Source: Seleniivibrio sp. (GTDB taxonomy: Bacteria > Chrysiogenota > Deferribacteres > Deferribacterales > Geovibrionaceae). From it: DNA of 64,000 bases. This document shows, piece after piece, positions 25,497-35,555 of the stretch. The stretch covers positions 1 through 64,000 of the forward strand of contig NZ_JAJOIL010000035.1 of NCBI RefSeq assembly GCF_021209385.1, written 5' to 3'. Position 1 is the stretch's first letter. Every line of letters begins with the position of its first letter. The notes under the pieces were generated by a model. That model did not search any database. It saw only the letters and a list, made by a program, of their open reading frames with translations, and had not been told where the DNA came from. The position numbers and the translations under genes are program-made.

Positions 25497-27038
25497 ATGA
25501 AAACAAATATTCCCGTCTGGGTCAAAGTCGTACTCCCTATAGGAATCTCAGTAGCCCTGTTTGTTTTCATAATCTTCGGAATCCACATTCCAGACGTCGA
25601 AAAACGTCTTCTTGAGCAAAAAAAATCCCAGATATACGATCTGACGCAGACTGCTATTGATGTCATATCCTACCAGTATAAGCTCTCTCAGCAGGGTAAG
25701 ATAACTGAAAAAGAAGCGAAAAAACAGGCGGCGGCAATAATCGGCGCTATGAAGTTCGGACCGGAAAGAAAGGATTATTTCTGGATAACCAATTACGAAC
25801 CGCGCATGGTCATGCACCCTTACCGGACAGATCTGGACGGAAAGATGCTGGATGATTTTGCCGATCCGAAAGGGAAGCATGTTTTCAACGAAATGGTTCA
25901 TGCGGTCAAAACCGACGGAGAAGGATTCGTTGATTATATGTGGCAATGGAAGGACGATTCCGGCACAATAATACCGAAAATATCATACGTAAAAGCATTT
26001 CCTGAATGGCAATGGATCGTCGGCACGGGAATATACATAGACGACATAAAACGTGAGGCGGCATCTCAGGTTGCAAAGCTAATTTTTTATACAATCTCAA
26101 TTTTCTTCTTTATCCTCATCCTCTCAGGCTACACCATAATGTCCGGCGTTCACACGAACGAAGCGCTTCTTATGCGTGAAAAAGAACTGGAAAACCTTAA
26201 CAGCAAGTTGGAAGACAGGGTTTCCGCACGAACGAAAGACCTTCAAGAATCGCTGGAAAATCTGAAACGCACCCAGAACCAGCTTATAGAGGCGGAAAAA
26301 ATGGCATCGTTGGGAAATCTGGTGGCAGGAGTTGCCCACGAGATAAATACTCCGGTGGGTATAGGCGTAACAACAGCAACGTATCTTGAAGACAAACTGA
26401 AAGCACTGATAATGGCATATAACTCCGGTCAGATGAAAAAGAGCGATCTGGACAAATTTTTTGAAACGGCGGAACAGTCTCTCCACAACATTTCCACCAA
26501 CCTGCTCAGGGCGGGAAGCCTCGTCCGCAGTTTTAAACAGGTGGCAGTGGATCAGTCCAGCGAACTCCCCAGAAAATTCAGTGTTAAAAACTATCTGAAC
26601 GATATTTTGCAAAGTTTAAGTCCAAAACTTAAAAATAGCGGACATAATGTCTACCTTGATGTACCTGAAGATCTTATAATAGAATCATACCCAGGCGCTC
26701 TGATGCAGATATTCTCCAATCTGATAATCAACAGCCTCATGCACGGATTTGACGAAATTGAGAACGGGATAATTGAAATCAAAGGGGAAATGGAAGGCAC
26801 AAACCTGATACTGACCTATTCGGACAACGGGGTCGGCATGAACGAAGAACAGCTTGCCCGTATATACGAACCATTCTACACAACAAAACGGAACGCAGGC
26901 GGGTCTGGTCTGGGTATGAACATAGTTTATAACCTGATCAGCAGAAAGCTGAACGGAACCATAAGTATACAGAGCAAACCAGGGCAGGGAACCACATTCA
27001 AAATAACCGTGCCTGTGAAGGGAGAACGCAATGACTGA
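25497..27038 (+). CDS. Cache-domain sensor histidine kinase
   Basis: A 513-residue membrane kinase. Helix 1 (about 8-30) is followed by a single Cache type 2 sensor: DYFWITNYEPRMVMHPYRTD, GEGFVDYMWQWK and WIVGTGIYIDDIK. Helix 2 (about 205-225) leads into a coiled coil. The HisKA motif ASLGNLVAGVAHEINTPVG carries the phospho-acceptor His. The HATPase_c domain has N-box NLIINSLMHGF, G1 DNGVGM and G2 GGSGLGMNI. Cache domains of this kind bind small carboxylates or amines. Its stop overlaps the start of the next gene by eight bases, so the two form a pair. The start at 25497 is preferred over an upstream frame. Confidence 0.85.
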   Translation: MKTNIPVWVKVVLPIGISVALFVFIIFGIHIPDVEKRLLEQKKSQIYDLTQTAIDVISYQYKLSQQGKITEKEAKKQAAAIIGAMKFGPERKDYFWITNYEPRMVMHPYRTDLDGKMLDDFADPKGKHVFNEMVHAVKTDGEGFVDYMWQWKDDSGTIIPKISYVKAFPEWQWIVGTGIYIDDIKREAASQVAKLIFYTISIFFFILILSGYTIMSGVHTNEALLMREKELENLNSKLEDRVSARTKDLQESLENLKRTQNQLIEAEKMASLGNLVAGVAHEINTPVGIGVTTATYLEDKLKALIMAYNSGQMKKSDLDKFFETAEQSLHNISTNLLRAGSLVRSFKQVAVDQSSELPRKFSVKNYLNDILQSLSPKLKNSGHNVYLDVPEDLIIESYPGALMQIFSNLIINSLMHGFDEIENGIIEIKGEMEGTNLILTYSDNGVGMNEEQLARIYEPFYTTKRNAGGSGLGMNIVYNLISRKLNGTISIQSKPGQGTTFKITVPVKGERND

Positions 27039-28596
27039 CAGCGGCGAGAACATTATTTTTGCACCGGAAGACGATTTTGACAGCCCGATGACAAGCCACG
27101 CGGAAGAATTCTGGAAAGTACTTATCGTTGATGACGAACCGGACATCCATACAACAACTAAGATGGTTTTGGACGATTTTGTTTTCGAGGATAAAAAACT
27201 TAAATTCTACAGCGCGTATTCCGCAAAAGAAGCCATAGACATAATGAATCAGGTCAAGGATTTCGCGGTTATCCTCCTTGACGTGGTGATGGAAAGCAAC
27301 ATAGCGGGACTTAATCTTGCGAAGATAATACGGGGCGAAATGGGCAACAGGTTCAGCAGAATAATACTGCGCACAGGACAGCCAGGCGAAGCACCCGAAA
27401 AAAAGGTTATAGCCGAATATGACATCAACGATTACAAGAACAAAGCGGAACTCACCAGCCAGCAGCTTTATACAACAATGTTCTCAGCACTCAGGTCATA
27501 CCGCGACCTGCGCATAATAAACCGAAACAGCGAGGGTCTGAAACAGATAATCAACTCCACAGCGAACCTTTTCCAGCGCCAGAATGTTGAACAGCTCGCG
27601 CAGGGCGTACTTACGCAGGTTGTGTCTATTCTGGGACTTGAAAATTCATATTATGTCAGCACTTCAGGTTTCACAGCCGCGCGCACCGGAGACAGCGATT
27701 TCCGCATTATCGCTGCCACAGGAAGGTTCACCCAATGCCTGGGAGCAACCGTAGATACCTGCACCCCTATACCTACAGAAATAGTGCCTTACCTGAAACA
27801 GGCTGTTACAAAAGAGAAAAGCGGATTTATAGACAGTCATTACGTCGGCTATTTTCCGACCATGAAGGATAAGATACACCTGCTGTTCATCGAAGACTGC
27901 TCAAAAGATCTCGGTCCGGAGATTGAGAACCTGCTCACAATTTTCAACCACAACGCCGGCATAGCCTTTGATAACGTAATACTCAACAAAGAGATACAGG
28001 AAACCCAGATCGACATCATCCACCACCTCGGAGAGGTTGTGGAGAGCCGCTCCAAAGAGACGGCATACCACGTCAAACGTGTATCGGAATACACCTTTAC
28101 GATAGCACTTGAAATGGGTTTTTCAGAAGAGGACGCCCAACTTTTCAAGATGGCGTCTCCTATGCACGACATAGGCAAGATAGGCATCTCGGATTCGATT
28201 CTTCTGAAACCCGACAGGCTCACCCACGACGAAATGAGCATAATGCGCACCCACACGGAGATAGGATACAACATGCTGAAAAACTCCTCACGCCCTCTTT
28301 TGCAGACAAGTGCGGTGATAGCCCGCGACCACCACGAATACTGGGACGGCAGCGGATACCCAAGGGGCATAGAAGGAGAGAATATACATCCGGCAGCTCG
28401 CATAGTCTGTCTCGCTGACGTTTACGACGCCCTCGGCAGCAAACGCGTCTATAAAGAAGCCTGGCAGGAGGAAGACGTTCTGAAATTCATAAACGATAAC
28501 CGCGGAAAAATGTTCGACCCGAAAACAGTTGACGCTCTTTTAAGCGCCTATGAAAAAATAAAGCTTATAAAAGAGCGATACAAAGATCCCGAATGA
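27031..28596 (+). CDS. Response regulator with REC, DUF3369 and HD-GYP domains (c-di-GMP phosphodiesterase)
   Basis: A 521-residue regulator. The receiver (about 28-160) has VDDEPD, the phospho-acceptor Asp in VILLDVVME and a Lys in DYKNKAEL. The central DUF3369 sensor-like domain (about 165-320) is GAF-like. The HD-GYP domain (about 335-500) keeps all metal and substrate residues: MHDIGKIGISD, DHHEYWDGSGYPRG and LADVYDAL. It would break down c-di-GMP when phosphorylated by the overlapping Cache kinase upstream. Confidence 0.9.
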   Translation: MTDSGENIIFAPEDDFDSPMTSHAEEFWKVLIVDDEPDIHTTTKMVLDDFVFEDKKLKFYSAYSAKEAIDIMNQVKDFAVILLDVVMESNIAGLNLAKIIRGEMGNRFSRIILRTGQPGEAPEKKVIAEYDINDYKNKAELTSQQLYTTMFSALRSYRDLRIINRNSEGLKQIINSTANLFQRQNVEQLAQGVLTQVVSILGLENSYYVSTSGFTAARTGDSDFRIIAATGRFTQCLGATVDTCTPIPTEIVPYLKQAVTKEKSGFIDSHYVGYFPTMKDKIHLLFIEDCSKDLGPEIENLLTIFNHNAGIAFDNVILNKEIQETQIDIIHHLGEVVESRSKETAYHVKRVSEYTFTIALEMGFSEEDAQLFKMASPMHDIGKIGISDSILLKPDRLTHDEMSIMRTHTEIGYNMLKNSSRPLLQTSAVIARDHHEYWDGSGYPRGIEGENIHPAARIVCLADVYDALGSKRVYKEAWQEEDVLKFINDNRGKMFDPKTVDALLSAYEKIKLIKERYKDPE

Positions 28597-28726: not shown

Positions 28727-28756
28727 TTGACACCTTATATCGATATTTGATATCCT
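28727..28756 (+). promoter_or_regulatory. Putative sigma-70 promoter of the H2-sensing operon
   Basis: TTGACA at 28727-28732 and TATCCT at 28751-28756 with an 18-base spacer, about 60 bases before the small-subunit ATG. Overlapping palindromes ATATCGATAT and GATATTTGATATC lie between and over the -10. Confidence 0.4.
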
Positions 28757-28818: not shown

Positions 28819-29754
28819 ATGAAAAACGTCTACTGGCTGCATTGCGGCGGCTGTGATGGCGACAGTGTATCTCTGCTTAACCTGGATAAGCCCAATCTGG
28901 TTGACATTTTCGTTGATCTGGAAATCAACCCTCTTTATCACCCTTCCCTATCAATTAAGTCGCATAAGGAACAGCACGAACTGCTGGAATCCCTTCAGGA
29001 CGGTACAATCCCACTGGACATTCTGGTGGTTGAGGGCAACATTCTGAAAGGACCCGCCAGCACGGGTATGTTCGATCTCAAATTCGGCGTTCCGAAAAAG
29101 AATATTCTAGTCGCCCTGTCTAAGAGGGCACAGTATATAATAGCTCTCGGCACCTGCGCGTCTTTCGGCGGAATAGGCGTCGGATCGGAAACGCAGGCGA
29201 CAGGCATACAGTTCACCCGCAAGGAAAAAGGCGGTCTGCTCGGTGCGGACTACGTTTCCGGAGGCGGTCTGCCGGTCATCAACCTGCCCGGCTGCCCCTG
29301 CCACCCTGAAATATTCACCAGCATACTCGCGATGCTCAACAGCGGCATAGAAATTGAACTGGACGAATACAACCGCCCGCTGGCATGGTACGGCATGATG
29401 GTGCATCAGGGCTGCACCCGAAACGAATATCACGAATACCGCGTTGAGGAGAACGATTTCGGTGAGAAGGGCTGTCTGTTTTTCCACCTCGGCTGTCACG
29501 GTCCGCTTACAGGCGGTTCATGCAATAAACTTCTCTGGAGCAAACGCTCTTCCAAACCCAGAGTCGGCGTACCCTGCTTCGGATGCAACAATCCGGACTT
29601 TCCTCAGGAATACCCCTTCTTTGACACAAAAAATATCGAAGGTATCCCGATAGCACTGCCAAACGGCATCAGCCGCGCACAGTACATGGCTTACAAAGGC
29701 ATGGCGGCTGCGGCGGCACCTTTAAGACTCAAAAAACGTCAGACAAGAATATAG
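28819..29754 (+). CDS. [NiFe] hydrogenase small subunit, cytoplasmic H2-sensor type
   Basis: A 311-residue small subunit without a Tat signal or C-terminal membrane anchor, as in regulatory hydrogenases (HupU/HoxB). It should be cytoplasmic. Iron-sulfur ligands are visible: Cys9 and Cys12 in LHCGGCDGD, GTCASFGG and LPGCPCHPE for the proximal cluster; HQGCTRNEYHEY, HLGCHGPLTGGSC and VPCFGCNNPDFP for the others. The start at 28819 has GGAG upstream. The large subunit follows ten bases later. Assignment to the sensor group rests on architecture and neighbours; a cytoplasmic uptake enzyme remains possible. Confidence 0.8.
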   Translation: MKNVYWLHCGGCDGDSVSLLNLDKPNLVDIFVDLEINPLYHPSLSIKSHKEQHELLESLQDGTIPLDILVVEGNILKGPASTGMFDLKFGVPKKNILVALSKRAQYIIALGTCASFGGIGVGSETQATGIQFTRKEKGGLLGADYVSGGGLPVINLPGCPCHPEIFTSILAMLNSGIEIELDEYNRPLAWYGMMVHQGCTRNEYHEYRVEENDFGEKGCLFFHLGCHGPLTGGSCNKLLWSKRSSKPRVGVPCFGCNNPDFPQEYPFFDTKNIEGIPIALPNGISRAQYMAYKGMAAAAAPLRLKKRQTRI

Positions 29755-29763
29755 GAGTCTGCC

Positions 29764-31296
29764 ATGGCAAAGATATCTTGCAGTTTCCCCGTCAACAGAG
29801 TCGAGGGCGACCTCACTTTGCAGATAGATTTTGAAAATGATACAGTTACGCAAGCCCGCAGTGTCGGCACCCTGTACAGAGGCTTTGAAAAGATAATGAG
29901 AGGACGCGGTGCTCTGGACGGACTTGTCATAACCCCGCGGATATGCGGGATATGCAGTCTGTCACACCTTGCGGCGGCATCAGCAGCACTGGACAACCTC
30001 TGCAAAACCACACCACCCGACAACGCACTGCGCATAAAGAACATCACAGGTATGATGGAGATGATCCAGAGCGATATACGCCAGTCCGTGCTGATGTTCA
30101 TGCCGGATTTTGTTAATCAGGCTTATTCATCAAACCCGCTCTATATTGAAGCTGTGAAACGATACTCACCCCTTCGCGGTGCAAGATGCGTTTCCGCCGT
30201 TAAAAACACTGCAACAATCGTTGAGATAATCGCCATACTAGGCGGTCAGTGGCCCCACACCTCTTTCATGGTGCCGGGCGGCGTAACAAACATCCCGACA
30301 ATCCACGATATAGTACAATGCAGACACCTTATAGTCAGATGCATGAAGTCATACGAGGAACAGATACTCGGATGCAGCGTCGAACGCTTCAATAATATAA
30401 GCACCAAACAGGAGCTTGACGAATGGCTCTCATCATCGCAGGAGCACAGCGAAAGCGATATGGGATTTTTAATCAGGTTCGGCAGAAGCATCGGTCTTGA
30501 TACTATCGGCAACAGCTACGGAAATTTCCTTTCATACGGAGCTTTCGACATACCCTCCGACTCTGATGTCAGTCCCCGCCATGGACGCGAGAAGCTTATA
30601 CGCAGCGGATATGCAGAGGGAACGAACGTCACGGAGTTCGACCAGAGCTACATTGCCGAGGCAATATCCCACTCATGGTTCAACGGATATGAAGGGGCAA
30701 AACATCCTTTCGACGGTATGACGGAACCGGAAGCGAGCGGAGAGGACGGCAAAAAATACTCATGGGTCAAAGCGCCAAGGTATAACGACAAACCTGTTGA
30801 AACCGGACCTCTGGCACAGATGGTAATAAACGGCATCCCGCTCTTTACAGAACTGATAAAAACCGAAGGTTCATCAGCTCTCACAAGGCAGATGGCAAGA
30901 CTGGCACGTCCGGCAAAACTCTTCCCGAAAGCTTTGGCATGGATAGATGAAATGGCAAAACTGCTAGGCAGTTCGCAGTTTTACATCCCCTACGGTGAGA
31001 TAAAAAACGGACGTGGCATGGGGCTTACCGATGCCGCACGGGGCGCTTTGGGTCACTGGATAATTGTTGAAGACAAAACAATTATGAAATATCAGATAAT
31101 AACCCCCACAGCATGGAACGGTTCGCCGCGGGACGACGCGGGTATGCCGGGAGCGTGGGAAAAGGCGCTTGAGGGAATAAGAGTTGCGGATACCGATAAT
31201 CCTATTGAGATAGGACACATTATACGGTCGTTCGACCCCTGCCTTGTCTGTGCCGTACACAGGCTGGACAGCGGGAAAAAGATATTCATATGCTAA
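29764..31296 (+). CDS. [NiFe] hydrogenase large subunit, H2-sensor (HupV/HoxC) type
   Basis: A 510-residue catalytic subunit. The NiFe site is bound by RICGICSLSH (residues 59-68) and DPCLVCAVH near the C-terminus. Isoleucine in RICGIC replaces the valine of ordinary uptake enzymes, as in known H2 sensors. A short 11-residue tail (RLDSGKKIFIC) remains after the last His. True sensors usually lack a tail and are not processed, so this may mean that processing still occurs. No maturation protease is nearby; hypC and hypD lie at 8416-9727. The operon continues into a PAS hybrid kinase, as HupUV is coupled to HupT. Confidence 0.8.
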   Translation: MAKISCSFPVNRVEGDLTLQIDFENDTVTQARSVGTLYRGFEKIMRGRGALDGLVITPRICGICSLSHLAAASAALDNLCKTTPPDNALRIKNITGMMEMIQSDIRQSVLMFMPDFVNQAYSSNPLYIEAVKRYSPLRGARCVSAVKNTATIVEIIAILGGQWPHTSFMVPGGVTNIPTIHDIVQCRHLIVRCMKSYEEQILGCSVERFNNISTKQELDEWLSSSQEHSESDMGFLIRFGRSIGLDTIGNSYGNFLSYGAFDIPSDSDVSPRHGREKLIRSGYAEGTNVTEFDQSYIAEAISHSWFNGYEGAKHPFDGMTEPEASGEDGKKYSWVKAPRYNDKPVETGPLAQMVINGIPLFTELIKTEGSSALTRQMARLARPAKLFPKALAWIDEMAKLLGSSQFYIPYGEIKNGRGMGLTDAARGALGHWIIVEDKTIMKYQIITPTAWNGSPRDDAGMPGAWEKALEGIRVADTDNPIEIGHIIRSFDPCLVCAVHRLDSGKKIFIC

Positions 31297-31333
31297 AACA
31301 GGTTGACGAAAAGATCAGCCGGGACGGCCATTT

Positions 31334-33352
31334 ATGGAATATCAGGATATGGAGAGTATCAGAAACAGTATGATAGACGGCAGAATAGTCGAAAAACTTA
31401 TGTCTGAAAACAGCCTGCTGCGCTCTGAGGTTCGTGTTTCACACGAGGCGGCGGAGATTACCACCAGACTGGTAATAGAACAGTTTGAAAAAGCGGAATC
31501 GCTCATGCAGAAATTCGAGTCTGCAAGCGGTTTTCTGAAAGCTGTGATGGATGCCGCAATGCAGATATCCATCATCGCCACAGACCTTGACGGACAGATC
31601 ATTCTATTTAACCGCGGTGCCGAGTTTATGCTTGGCTATACCGAAAAAGAAGCCCGCCAGATGAGTTTTTTCGATATTTTCGACAACAAGGATCTGCTGA
31701 ACAACTGCGTAACTCTCATGGCGAATACCGAAACGCTCATGTCCGACAGAGAAAAACACGCTGAGGTCATTTCGCAGATATCCTCTCAGATAAACGAAGG
31801 AGTGTTCTGCCGCAGAAACGGCAGCCGATTCCCGGTCAGCTTTGCCATAACCCCCATAAAAGAGAACGGAAATATCGTCGGCTGTCTGTCGGTGGCAATG
31901 GATATATCCACACTGAAGCACGCAGAAAATGAGCTTCAGAGAGCTTACAAAGAAATATCGGAAGCGAACGAAAGGCTGCAGAAGCTGGACAAACTGAAAT
32001 CCGATTTCCTTTCGTCAGTCTCCCACGAGTTAAGAACACCGCTGACTTCCATACGCGGGTTCTCTAAACTCATCGGCAAAGACTTTGAGAGGTACTTCGT
32101 TCCTCTCACCGGAGAAAACCCAGCACTTGCGGCAAAATCAGAGAAAATAAAGGAAAACCTGTCCATAATTCTCAGCGAAACCGAAAGGCTTACAAGACTG
32201 ATAAACGACGTTCTCGACCTCTCAAAGATAGAATCACAGAAAACACATTGGCGCGAGGAAGCGGTAAATATGTCCGAAATGCTCCGCCATGCTGTCAACG
32301 CCGCCAAGGGACAGTTTGATGACAAACCGGAGATAGAGCTTATTACGGACATACCGGAAGCACTGCCTTATGTTTTCGGTGACTATGACCGCTTTGTGCA
32401 GGTTACAGTCAACCTGCTGAACAACGCATCGAAATTTACCAAAAAGGGCAGCGTAACAGTCCACGCTTTTGAAACCGGAAGCGGATTCGTTCAGGTGGAC
32501 GTAACAGACACAGGTTGCGGTTTCCCCCAGGAGGAAGCAGAAGCGGTGTTCGATAAGTTTCGTCAGGTCTGCCACGGCGACACCCTTGAGGAAAAGCCGA
32601 CAGGAACAGGACTCGGACTTTCAATTTCACATGAAATAATAACCCGCTTCGGCGGAAAGATATGGGCACGTTCCGCCCTTAATCAGGGCAGCACGTTCAG
32701 CTTTACCCTGCCCGCAATGGTGCAGGAAACCGGAATGGCTGAAACCACGGAAAACGCCGACGGCAAGCTGATTCTCGTGGTTGACGATGAAATGGCGATA
32801 CGCTCGCTTCTGACACAGTTCTTCACATCATACGGCTTCCGTGTGGCAACCGCCGACAACGGAAAAACCGCAATTGATATGGCGAAAAAGTTCGATCCCG
32901 ACCTTATAACAATGGACATCGCGATGCCTGTTATGGACGGCAAAACCGCAATTGACTATATGAAACAGGACGAAAAGCTCAAAGATATCCCGATTGTGGT
33001 TCTTTCCGCATTCAACGACAGCTTTGCCGCCAACGGGGACGTTGTTTTTGATAAACCGTTAAACGAACAGAGACTGATTGACAGCGTTTTTATGCTGATA
33101 AATAAAGAAAAACTGAAAGATTGCCATGCCTGCCTGATTATTTGCAGGCAGGACTGCGAACGCAGTGTCGAAATTCCGTCCATCTCTCCTAAAAATGCCG
33201 AGATGTGCCAGCCGCACGATCTCACAGCAAAACTGGAGAACGGTTATAAGGGTCTGGTGGTGATTCCCGCCGATATGATGGACTACGTTGACCTGCAAAG
33301 GATAAGCACTTACGAAAGTATTCAACTGCTCATCCTGCCGCACAAACAGTGA
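31334..33352 (+). CDS. PAS-domain hybrid histidine kinase (candidate H2-signal kinase)
   Basis: A 672-residue soluble kinase without membrane helices. An N-terminal coiled coil (1-65) leads into a PAS domain (about 70-195; IIATDLDGQIILFNRGAEFM). HisKA carries the acceptor His in SSVSHELRTPLTS near 230. HATPase_c has NLLNNASKFT, DTGCGFP and GTGLGLSIS. A receiver (about 475-595) has VVDDEMAIRSLL and MDIAMPVMDGK. A Cys-rich tail of about 75 residues (CHACLIICRQDCE) is of unknown purpose. It lies 37 bases after the hydrogenase large subunit, matching the place of HupT/HoxJ kinases, whose PAS domain receives the signal from the sensor hydrogenase. Confidence 0.85.
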   Translation: MEYQDMESIRNSMIDGRIVEKLMSENSLLRSEVRVSHEAAEITTRLVIEQFEKAESLMQKFESASGFLKAVMDAAMQISIIATDLDGQIILFNRGAEFMLGYTEKEARQMSFFDIFDNKDLLNNCVTLMANTETLMSDREKHAEVISQISSQINEGVFCRRNGSRFPVSFAITPIKENGNIVGCLSVAMDISTLKHAENELQRAYKEISEANERLQKLDKLKSDFLSSVSHELRTPLTSIRGFSKLIGKDFERYFVPLTGENPALAAKSEKIKENLSIILSETERLTRLINDVLDLSKIESQKTHWREEAVNMSEMLRHAVNAAKGQFDDKPEIELITDIPEALPYVFGDYDRFVQVTVNLLNNASKFTKKGSVTVHAFETGSGFVQVDVTDTGCGFPQEEAEAVFDKFRQVCHGDTLEEKPTGTGLGLSISHEIITRFGGKIWARSALNQGSTFSFTLPAMVQETGMAETTENADGKLILVVDDEMAIRSLLTQFFTSYGFRVATADNGKTAIDMAKKFDPDLITMDIAMPVMDGKTAIDYMKQDEKLKDIPIVVLSAFNDSFAANGDVVFDKPLNEQRLIDSVFMLINKEKLKDCHACLIICRQDCERSVEIPSISPKNAEMCQPHDLTAKLENGYKGLVVIPADMMDYVDLQRISTYESIQLLILPHKQ

Positions 33353-33362
33353 GGTTTAGAAA

Positions 33363-33749
33363 ATGAAACGTATTCTGATTGTGGACGATGAAGTTCACAT
33401 CCGCTCACTCCTTGAGCAAACGCTTGAAGACATTGAATTTCTCCACAATATAGAGGTTGAAATTCATCAGGCGTCTGACGGGAGAAACGGACTGAACATG
33501 ATCGCCTCCGTACGCCCGGATCTTGTTTTTCTCGATGTTATGATGCCCGAAATGAACGGATACGAAGTCTGTAAAGCTGTAAAATCCAACAGCGAGCTTC
33601 AGCAAACGCTGATAATAATGCTCACTGCCAAGGGTCAGGAAACAGATAGGGAAAAGGGTGTCGGCAACGGCGCCGACTACTTTATGACCAAACCGTTCGA
33701 CCCTGACGAGGTACTTGAACTCGCGGGAAAACTCCTTGGGCTCGCCTGA
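33363..33749 (+). CDS. Single-domain response regulator
   Basis: A 128-residue CheY-like receiver with no output domain. It has the acidic pair in VDDEVHIRSLL, the acceptor Asp in LVFLDVMMPEMNGYEV, the switch Thr in MLTAKG and the conserved Lys in TKPFDPDEV. It starts 11 bases after the hybrid kinase and its end overlaps the next gene by 35 bases. It probably relays phosphate within this operon. Confidence 0.9.
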   Translation: MKRILIVDDEVHIRSLLEQTLEDIEFLHNIEVEIHQASDGRNGLNMIASVRPDLVFLDVMMPEMNGYEVCKAVKSNSELQQTLIIMLTAKGQETDREKGVGNGADYFMTKPFDPDEVLELAGKLLGLA

Positions 33750-35526
33750 TAACTTTAACCTGCTGAAGAAACTTCTGCGCTCTCAGCAGGCAAAATCCAT
33801 GCTCTGCGCCTTTTCCAAGGCGACGGGAAACGTTCTGGGGTTTCGCATAAGTTCAGGCAGCAGCGTGCTTTGTCAGTATCCGGATAACCCCGAAAGGGAA
33901 TTTTCGGTCATGCGCTCTTTAGAAATAAACAGAGACCGTCTGGGCACTCTCTTTGTTTATTCCGGAAGAGAAAGTGAATCTTTGTGCGAAAATATGGCAG
34001 ATGCACTCGCCTGTTCGCTCAGCTCAATGATTGAAAGCGAGCACGCGCGAAGAGCTGTCTCCACTGAGACCCTTTCCGCATACAGAGAGCTTGCCATGCT
34101 CCAGCGCACGGCAGACAGGCTTAACCGCGAACTGAAACCGTCCGGTATAGGCTCCGTCCTTCTTGACGAAACAGGGCTTTCATACGAGGGCGGAAAAGTC
34201 GGTGCAGTCCTTGGATTTGACAAGAACTCCAGGACATACAGCCTTCTTGCCGGCAGAGGAGATGATTCCGACAGAATATTCAGTTCCTTTATAGAATCCG
34301 GCACATGTATGATCTTTGCCAACATGGAAAAGGTGCAGATTGTCAACGACTTCGGACTGTTTATATCTGCCGGTGGAAAAAACTATTATTACAAATCCGT
34401 TATGGTTGTTCCGCTCACAGACGGCACATCCTATATGGGGTATATGCTGACAGCCGCACCGGAGGGCGATTTCTATTTGTCGTCCGACAAAAAGAGGATG
34501 GAAACCATCAGCCCCGCAGCTGCAACAGCCCTGCACAACGCTATAATGTTTGATGAGCAAAAGATGCTTTTCGACTCGTTCCTCAACGCCATCGCTACTG
34601 CCATCGACGCAAAATCACCATACACGGCGGGACACTGTAAACGCGTCCCATGGATAGCCAGTGAGCTTTTATGCGCTGCAAACGAAATGCAGAAAGGTAT
34701 TTTTGCCGATTTCAACGTCACGGAAGACGAAATAAACGAACTTAGGGTCGCGGCACTTCTGCACGACTGCGGAAAGATCAGCACCCCCGAATGGGTGATG
34801 GACAAATCTCTTAAACTGGAAGGCATCATAAACGGCATAGATATTATCAGGCTGAAAATGGAACTGTATAAACTTAACCTTATTCTGGAAGAATACAGGC
34901 AGCAGAAGGGTGAACTGAAAGACACTAAGGAGCTTTCCGAGCGGCTTGAAAAAGCAGAATTACATATGAAAACGCTGGAAAGCCTCAACAAAGGCGGCGA
35001 ATATCTTGACGCAAGCATAAAAGCCTGGCTGTCGGATTTGGGCAGTATTCAGGTGAAACTTGCCGACAGAAGCAGTATTCCGCTGCTAAACGCCGACGAA
35101 ATTGAAAAACTCTCCATAGCCAGAGGCACCCTTACAGCCGCAGAAAGACAGATTATCGAGGATCACGTCGTTAAAACCGTCATGATGCTGCGTGAAATAA
35201 AATTTCCTGAAAATATGTCCGATGTCATAAACATAGCAGGGCTGCACCACGAAAAGCTCAACGGAACCGGATATCCGTATCACATGAAGGGAGACGAAAT
35301 CCCCATGAAAGCAAGGATAATCGCAATCGCGGATATTTTCGAGGCGCTCACTGCGGAGGACAGACCATATAAAGGTCCCGGAACACTGAGCCGCGCAATT
35401 GAGATAATGGGATATATGGTACGCGACGGTCATATCGACGAAAACCTTTACCACCTGTTGATGGAATCCGGCATACATGTAAAATATGCCAGACAGTTTC
35501 TGCCGCCTGCAGCCATGGATATATAG
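33715..35526 (+). CDS. GAF-like / HD-GYP protein with a large insertion (c-di-GMP phosphodiesterase candidate)
   Basis: A 603-residue protein. The first 270 residues look like a GAF-type sensor. The HD-GYP core begins SFLNAIATAIDAKSPYTAGH and has LLHDCGKISTPEWV, then HHEKLNGTGYP and IADIFEALTAEDRPYK, so metal and GYP residues are kept. About 95 extra residues, mostly helical and charged, separate HDCGK from the GTLTAAERQIIEDH segment that usually follows closely. The start is a TTG at 33715 (GAGG just upstream) or possibly the TTG at 33736. It ends the H2-sensor operon; a terminator follows at 35532. Confidence 0.8.
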   Translation: MNSRENSLGSPDNFNLLKKLLRSQQAKSMLCAFSKATGNVLGFRISSGSSVLCQYPDNPEREFSVMRSLEINRDRLGTLFVYSGRESESLCENMADALACSLSSMIESEHARRAVSTETLSAYRELAMLQRTADRLNRELKPSGIGSVLLDETGLSYEGGKVGAVLGFDKNSRTYSLLAGRGDDSDRIFSSFIESGTCMIFANMEKVQIVNDFGLFISAGGKNYYYKSVMVVPLTDGTSYMGYMLTAAPEGDFYLSSDKKRMETISPAAATALHNAIMFDEQKMLFDSFLNAIATAIDAKSPYTAGHCKRVPWIASELLCAANEMQKGIFADFNVTEDEINELRVAALLHDCGKISTPEWVMDKSLKLEGIINGIDIIRLKMELYKLNLILEEYRQQKGELKDTKELSERLEKAELHMKTLESLNKGGEYLDASIKAWLSDLGSIQVKLADRSSIPLLNADEIEKLSIARGTLTAAERQIIEDHVVKTVMMLREIKFPENMSDVINIAGLHHEKLNGTGYPYHMKGDEIPMKARIIAIADIFEALTAEDRPYKGPGTLSRAIEIMGYMVRDGHIDENLYHLLMESGIHVKYARQFLPPAAMDI

Positions 35527-35529
35527 AAA

Positions 35530-35555
35530 AAAGACGGCTCGAAAGAGCCGTCTGA
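35530..35555. terminator. Bidirectional terminator
   Basis: AGACGGCTC (35532-35540), GAAA loop, GAGCCGTCT (35545-35553). It lies between the HD-GYP gene and the convergent pirin gene. Confidence 0.75.

Follow-up and report, generated by a model that had tools for sequence, protein, structure and literature searches.

A probable H2-responsive signalling cassette in Seleniivibrio, linking a group 2c-like [NiFe] hydrogenase to a predicted c-di-GMP phosphodiesterase

The window analysed here, the 64,000 nucleotides at positions 1 to 64,000 of contig NZ_JAJOIL010000035.1 of a Seleniivibrio sp., contains a run of five plus-strand genes, defined by open reading frames and Pfam matches, that encode a [NiFe] hydrogenase and three signalling proteins (Table 1). 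The intergenic gaps are 9, 37 and 10 bases, and the receiver gene extends 35 bases into that for the HD-GYP protein; these spacings, the lack of a Tat signal and the RICGIC motif, all described in the initial annotation, were confirmed by the reading frames, motifs and Pfam assignments. Part of the promoter-like site ahead of the cassette (TTGACAcctt...ATATTTG) is conserved in the genomes of two other Seleniivibrio species (G026 and G028), in both of which a hairpin is also present at the position equivalent to that closing the cassette. Matches to a sigma-54 pattern were at chance level. The cassette has no adjoining gene for a maturation protease, whereas in several relatives a HycI-type protease gene lies next to that for the large subunit; three HycI-type genes are located elsewhere in the genome. 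The HD-GYP protein may alternatively start at a later in-frame TTG, at 33736.

Table 1. Position of the cassette features and of related elements discussed in the text
Feature	Position	Strand	Remarks
Cache-domain histidine kinase and REC-DUF3369-HD-GYP pair	25497-28596		Pfam; directly upstream of the cassette
Promoter-like site	28727..28756	+	TTGACA, 18-nt spacer, TATCCT, extended -10 TG; ahead of the cassette; consensus match only
Five-gene cassette	28819-35526	+	Small subunit, large subunit, PAS hybrid kinase, receiver, HD-GYP
[NiFe]-hydrogenase small subunit, 311 aa	28819..29754	+	Pfam; no Tat signal; proximal-cluster motif C-D-G-D
[NiFe]-hydrogenase large subunit, 510 aa	29764..31296	+	Pfam; L1 RICGICSLSH, L2 SFDPCLVCAVH, 11-residue C-terminal extension RLDSGKKIFIC
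Hybrid histidine kinase, 672 aa	31334..33352	+	N-terminal segment, PAS, HisKA, HATPase, receiver, C-terminal tail of ~90 aa
Candidate hydrogenase-coupling segment of the kinase	31397..31519	+	Residues ~22-62: LMSENSLLRSEVRVSHEAAEITTRLVIEQFEKAESLMQKFE
Stand-alone receiver P0004, 128 aa	33363..33749	+	Pfam; phospho-acceptor Asp motif, LTA and TKPF intact
Receiver/HD-GYP gene overlap	33715-33749		Out of frame
HD-GYP protein P0005, 603 aa	33715..35526	+	Pfam; TTG start; predicted c-di-GMP phosphodiesterase
Terminator-like hairpin	35532..35553	+	9-bp perfect stem; closes the cassette
G500 class III nucleotide cyclase	L081 6325-7587		Kinase-type N-terminal segment; directly after hydrogenase and protease genes

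Outside its own assembly, the nearest matches to the large subunit are in a Deferribacteraceae bin (90% identity) and Seleniivibrio woodruffii (88%), and a contig scan reached only these two genus-mates. The identical gene order, gaps and overlap occur in G026 and G028, and all five genes have dN/dS values of 0.01-0.09 at dS of about 0.5-1.2, i.e. are under strong purifying selection; thus, the arrangement is not due to chance. The cassette is present in three of five Seleniivibrio species and is cleanly absent from the other two, where the DNA that follows the upstream HD-GYP gene leads to a MarR gene (G027) or a pirin gene (G025), so it is a self-contained unit that was acquired or lost inside the genus. 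Its hydrogenase is carried by 3 of the 51 Deferribacterota genomes searched. Conservation of the five-gene synteny, on which the first reading in part depended, holds for the three Seleniivibrio species; beyond the genus it gives way to variable loci, the kinase and output modules changing. The overlap of the receiver and HD-GYP genes is kept in all three species, and may permit a frameshifted fusion product.

The upstream pair encoding a Cache-domain kinase and a further HD-GYP protein, which the initial annotation had pointed out and which was considered here as a possible part of the system, is conserved in all five Seleniivibrio genomes searched. As the two species without the hydrogenase cassette still keep the pair, it was rejected as a component and is an independent neighbour.

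The small subunit begins with MKNVYWLHCGGCDGD. Trees were built from 26 large and 21 small subunits; in these, both cassette subunits fall in a clade (support 100/99) with the enzymes of genomes G384, G382, G462, G500 (large-subunit tree only) and G367 and with that of an Ideonella dechloratans plasmid. This clade, which rests on nine large subunits, spans at least three other phyla (at least two from the G-numbered genomes, plus the Pseudomonadota via Ideonella); large-subunit identity between the cassette enzyme and those of G384, G382, G462 and G500 is 48-52%. The clade is sister to group 2a, which includes Huc, lies outside it and is apart from group 2b; a firm grouping with catalytic uptake enzymes, which had been considered as a finding that would tell against sensing, was not observed. 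The proximal-cluster motif of the small subunit follows the same division, being CxGD in the clade, CxGC in 2b and CxGN in 2a members. The L1 motif RICGIC is no sensor signature, because it is common to the catalytic group 2a enzymes. The L2 motif of the cassette enzyme is one substitution from the group 2c consensus, SFDxCLVCTVH, as given in papers that cite the definition of the group, and those of G384, G382 and G462 match it exactly. With Ideonella as a stand-in for 2c reference sequences, the clade resembles HydDB group 2c, which the cassette would fit by idea and nearly by L2 motif. A search of 400 genomes centred on G485, mostly of one Huc-bearing genus, yielded only 2a references, and scans of IMG/VR with the small subunit and with the large subunits of the clade gave no matches.

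The kinase boxes and receiver motifs of the hybrid kinase are intact; no Hpt domain was found in it, and its C-terminal tail has no Pfam match. Structures predicted from three-sequence alignments had mean pLDDT values of 37 (kinase) and 34 (HD-GYP protein). Residues ~22-62 of the kinase align with the N-termini of the kinases of G384, G382 and G462 and of the G500 cyclase, with E values, from small pairwise databases, of 4e-7 to 9e-10; residues E25, N26, E32, A39, I42, T43, Q50 and F51 are invariant. Among 342 genomes, a profile of the segment matched only G384 and G382, besides one chance match. Those two are hydrogenase-bearing and contributed to the profile, so the positives are circular and the informative part is the absence elsewhere, i.e. 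of any credible match in the 340 other genomes; the one further match, in G108 (E 0.0076), was judged from the surrounding DNA to be a chance one. A search of plasmids with the kinase segment of G462 gave no match. On this distribution, which takes in hybrid kinases beside related hydrogenases of two other phyla, the N-terminal segment of ~40 residues looks like a hydrogenase-coupling plug.

The related loci differ in what accompanies the hydrogenase. In G384, a gene for a single REC-GAF-HD-GYP protein lies just upstream of those for the small subunit, large subunit, protease and a hybrid kinase with two receivers and an Hpt domain. The G462 locus has small subunit, large subunit, protease and a similarly organized hybrid kinase (two receivers plus Hpt), followed by a REC-class III cyclase. 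In the G500 locus, which has no kinase gene, those for small subunit, large subunit and protease are followed by one for a class III cyclase. The G500 cyclase, which bears the kinase-type segment, is 49% identical over 356 residues to the G462 REC-cyclase; the kinase and output enzyme therefore belong to one pathway, and G500 seems to have bypassed the kinase and receiver. In the second subclade, the G367 locus encodes small subunit, large subunit, protease, a 112-residue protein that reads like a Rieske-type protein and a PAS-PAS hybrid kinase, and the Ideonella plasmid locus encodes small subunit, large subunit, protease and a PAS-GGDEF-EAL protein. The G367 kinase has its first 200 residues in common with the GGDEF-EAL protein of Ideonella (32% identity, E 1.5e-33), a region different from the cassette-type segment. 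The G500/G462 and G367/Ideonella cases show one putative input attached to different outputs; among clade relatives in other phyla, outputs thus seem to have been swapped, sometimes to an enzyme predicted to make cAMP. It may be, tentatively and with somewhat less than an even chance, that the ~40-residue segment is a transferable plug by which a 2c-like hydrogenase would control whichever enzyme is attached, be it a hybrid kinase or a class III nucleotide cyclase, such that H2 would feed directly into c-di-GMP and cAMP signalling in at least three phyla, domain shuffling having exchanged the outputs.

The HD-GYP motifs of P0005 are complete (GHxxRV, HDCGK, EDH, HHE, GYP, ADIFEAL). P0004 matches the N-terminal receiver of the G384 REC-GAF-HD-GYP protein, and P0005 matches the C-terminal 396 residues of that same protein (38% identity, E 2e-72); no GAF domain was detected in P0005 by Pfam. 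By sequence, P0004 and P0005 together match a REC-GAF-HD-GYP regulator, its counterpart in the cassette being split over two overlapping genes.

Taken with the operon-like layout, these observations suggest that the cassette is a one-operon, H2-responsive signalling unit coupled to c-di-GMP, with a probability of roughly 0.6, its hydrogenase probably being the H2 sensor. That reading was already proposed when the locus was first annotated, and it stands as the best one for a hydrogenase that lacks an export signal and is arrayed with genes for kinase, receiver and HD-GYP protein. The cytosolic, group 2c-like enzyme would bind and turn over H2, and its redox or conformational state would be read by the N-terminal coiled segment of the kinase, perhaps also by the PAS domain. 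The hybrid kinase would then pass phosphate to its own receiver and/or to P0004, which, with P0005, would work as a two-chain response regulator. Because no Hpt domain was found in the kinase, phosphate may pass from it straight to P0004, the kinase's own receiver being a branch. H2 would thereby alter c-di-GMP hydrolysis, in whichever direction, and so motility, attachment or hydrogenase expression. Supporting a sensing role, the hydrogenases of the clade have adjoining signalling genes in G384, G462, G500, G367 and Ideonella. Against the c-di-GMP-coupled unit, the only relative with an HD-GYP gene beside the hydrogenase is G384, and REC-GAF-HD-GYP proteins are common; the missing Hpt domain and the lack of an adjoining protease gene also count against it.

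The alternative that best survives is that the enzyme is a catalytic, 2a-like uptake hydrogenase, with the signalling genes of the operon regulating its use or reporting electron flux and H2 sensing being secondary. The clade is the sister of that containing Huc, and the Huc enzyme of Mycobacterium smegmatis (PDB 7utd, 7uus; PMC10017518) is the best match of solved structure, at 379 bits vs 217 for the next distinct enzyme. The active-site cysteines, the L1 His and a C-terminal extension of the cleavable type are all present, and the gas-channel position equivalent to Phe110 of HoxC is Met, not Phe. In Huc, as in the cassette enzyme, the fourth proximal position is not Cys; for Huc, three [3Fe-4S] clusters are reported on the basis of the fourth coordinating residues and the density (PMC10017518). 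However, the residue is Asn in Huc and Asp in the cassette enzyme, which falls outside group 2a and has no partner genes for a menaquinone-reducing scaffold such as that of Huc. The operon partners of group 2a enzymes seen on plasmids (DUF1641, NifU-type and TPR proteins) are absent from the cassette, their place being taken by the signalling genes, and in G500 the kinase segment is fused directly to a cyclase, which suits a signalling role and not a respiratory one. An uptake role as the primary function is hence considered fairly unlikely. Because of its sister position to the catalytic 2a enzymes, complete active site and C-terminal extension, the enzyme may nonetheless turn over H2 for energy as well, a point against the sensing unit.

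It is also conceivable that H2 is sensed by the hydrogenase and kinase together, with P0004 as a diffusible, CheY-like output, the HD-GYP protein having an unrelated input of its own and the link to c-di-GMP being one of neighbourhood only. The receiver is indeed a separate gene product with an intact phospho-acceptor motif, P0005 has no receiver of its own, and other members of the clade use different outputs, including class III cyclases. By contrast, the overlap of the receiver and HD-GYP genes in three of three species, and the match of both products to one fused protein beside the G384 hydrogenase, argue for joint action, making an uncoupled P0004 quite improbable and favouring the c-di-GMP-coupled unit.

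To our knowledge, HoxBC/HupUV, which acts on hydrogenase gene expression, is the only case in which H2 sensing is understood in detail. The cassette has the same outline as those group 2b systems (HoxBC/HupUV, HoxJ/HupT and HoxA/HupR), i.e. a soluble hydrogenase, a PAS histidine kinase and a two-component output. That the enzyme is a true regulatory hydrogenase of this family with a replaced regulator, as the initial comparison with HupUV/HoxBC implied, is very improbable: the absent Tat signal, the Ile at the L1 gas-channel position (RICGIC), the adjoining PAS kinase and a C-terminal region of the small subunit that can be aligned with HoxB (tblastn 3-309) are as expected for 2b, but trees constrained to place the cassette enzyme with HoxC or the whole clade with 2b were rejected (AU p = 1.2e-5 and 0.005, respectively), the fourth proximal position is Asp rather than Cys, the kinase N-terminus differs from the HupT/HoxJ type, and a second-messenger enzyme stands in place of an NtrC-type activator. 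Further, 11 residues follow His499 of the large subunit, whereas HoxC stops at the corresponding His, and an L1 position that is Gln in HoxC and G130 is His68 in the cassette enzyme. Regulatory hydrogenases have a Gln replacing a His conserved in other [NiFe] hydrogenases (PMC5665086); equating the L1 position with that site is the reading of this analysis.

The c-di-GMP-coupled reading is closer to a proposal for HydDB group 2c (Greening et al.; as described in PMC4853749), enzymes which would sense H2 and act via diguanylate cyclases or phosphodiesterases. Like them, the cassette hydrogenase is a group 2 enzyme with no export signal, and its L2 motif departs from the consensus at one residue; the linkage to c-di-GMP enzymes is matched by the HD-GYP protein of the cassette, and by the GGDEF-EAL neighbour in Ideonella. 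The difference is that the c-di-GMP enzyme is an HD-GYP protein, and that the path to it leads through a hybrid kinase and a receiver encoded on its own. The coupling of H2 to c-di-GMP is thus an idea already put forward for group 2c and not new; the initial annotation did not know the arrangement as a described system. Relative to the literature examined, what appears to be new is the splitting of the response regulator, the route via a kinase, the common N-terminal segment and the cyclase variants. If the proposal is correct, H2 would also set second-messenger levels, and decisions on lifestyle would be tied to a gas that is key in anaerobic habitats. With the common segment so short, and with the G500 fusion bypassing the kinase, communication between hydrogenase and partner becomes directly testable with short constructs.

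A second unusual hydrogenase is encoded in the same genome (G000:C12, locus L062, 6379-10704). Its large subunit ends exactly at DPCTACSVH, with no C-terminal extension, and its small subunit has a Tat-type RRDFIK signal. An NtrC-type regulator gene adjoins the locus on the other strand, and nitrogenase-type genes lie upstream. The hydrogenase genes are followed by one for a methyl-accepting chemotaxis protein, a possible chemoreceptor for H2 or redox state. The N-terminal half of this protein contains a CxxCH heme-type motif, and its match to CZB is weak and below the cutoff.
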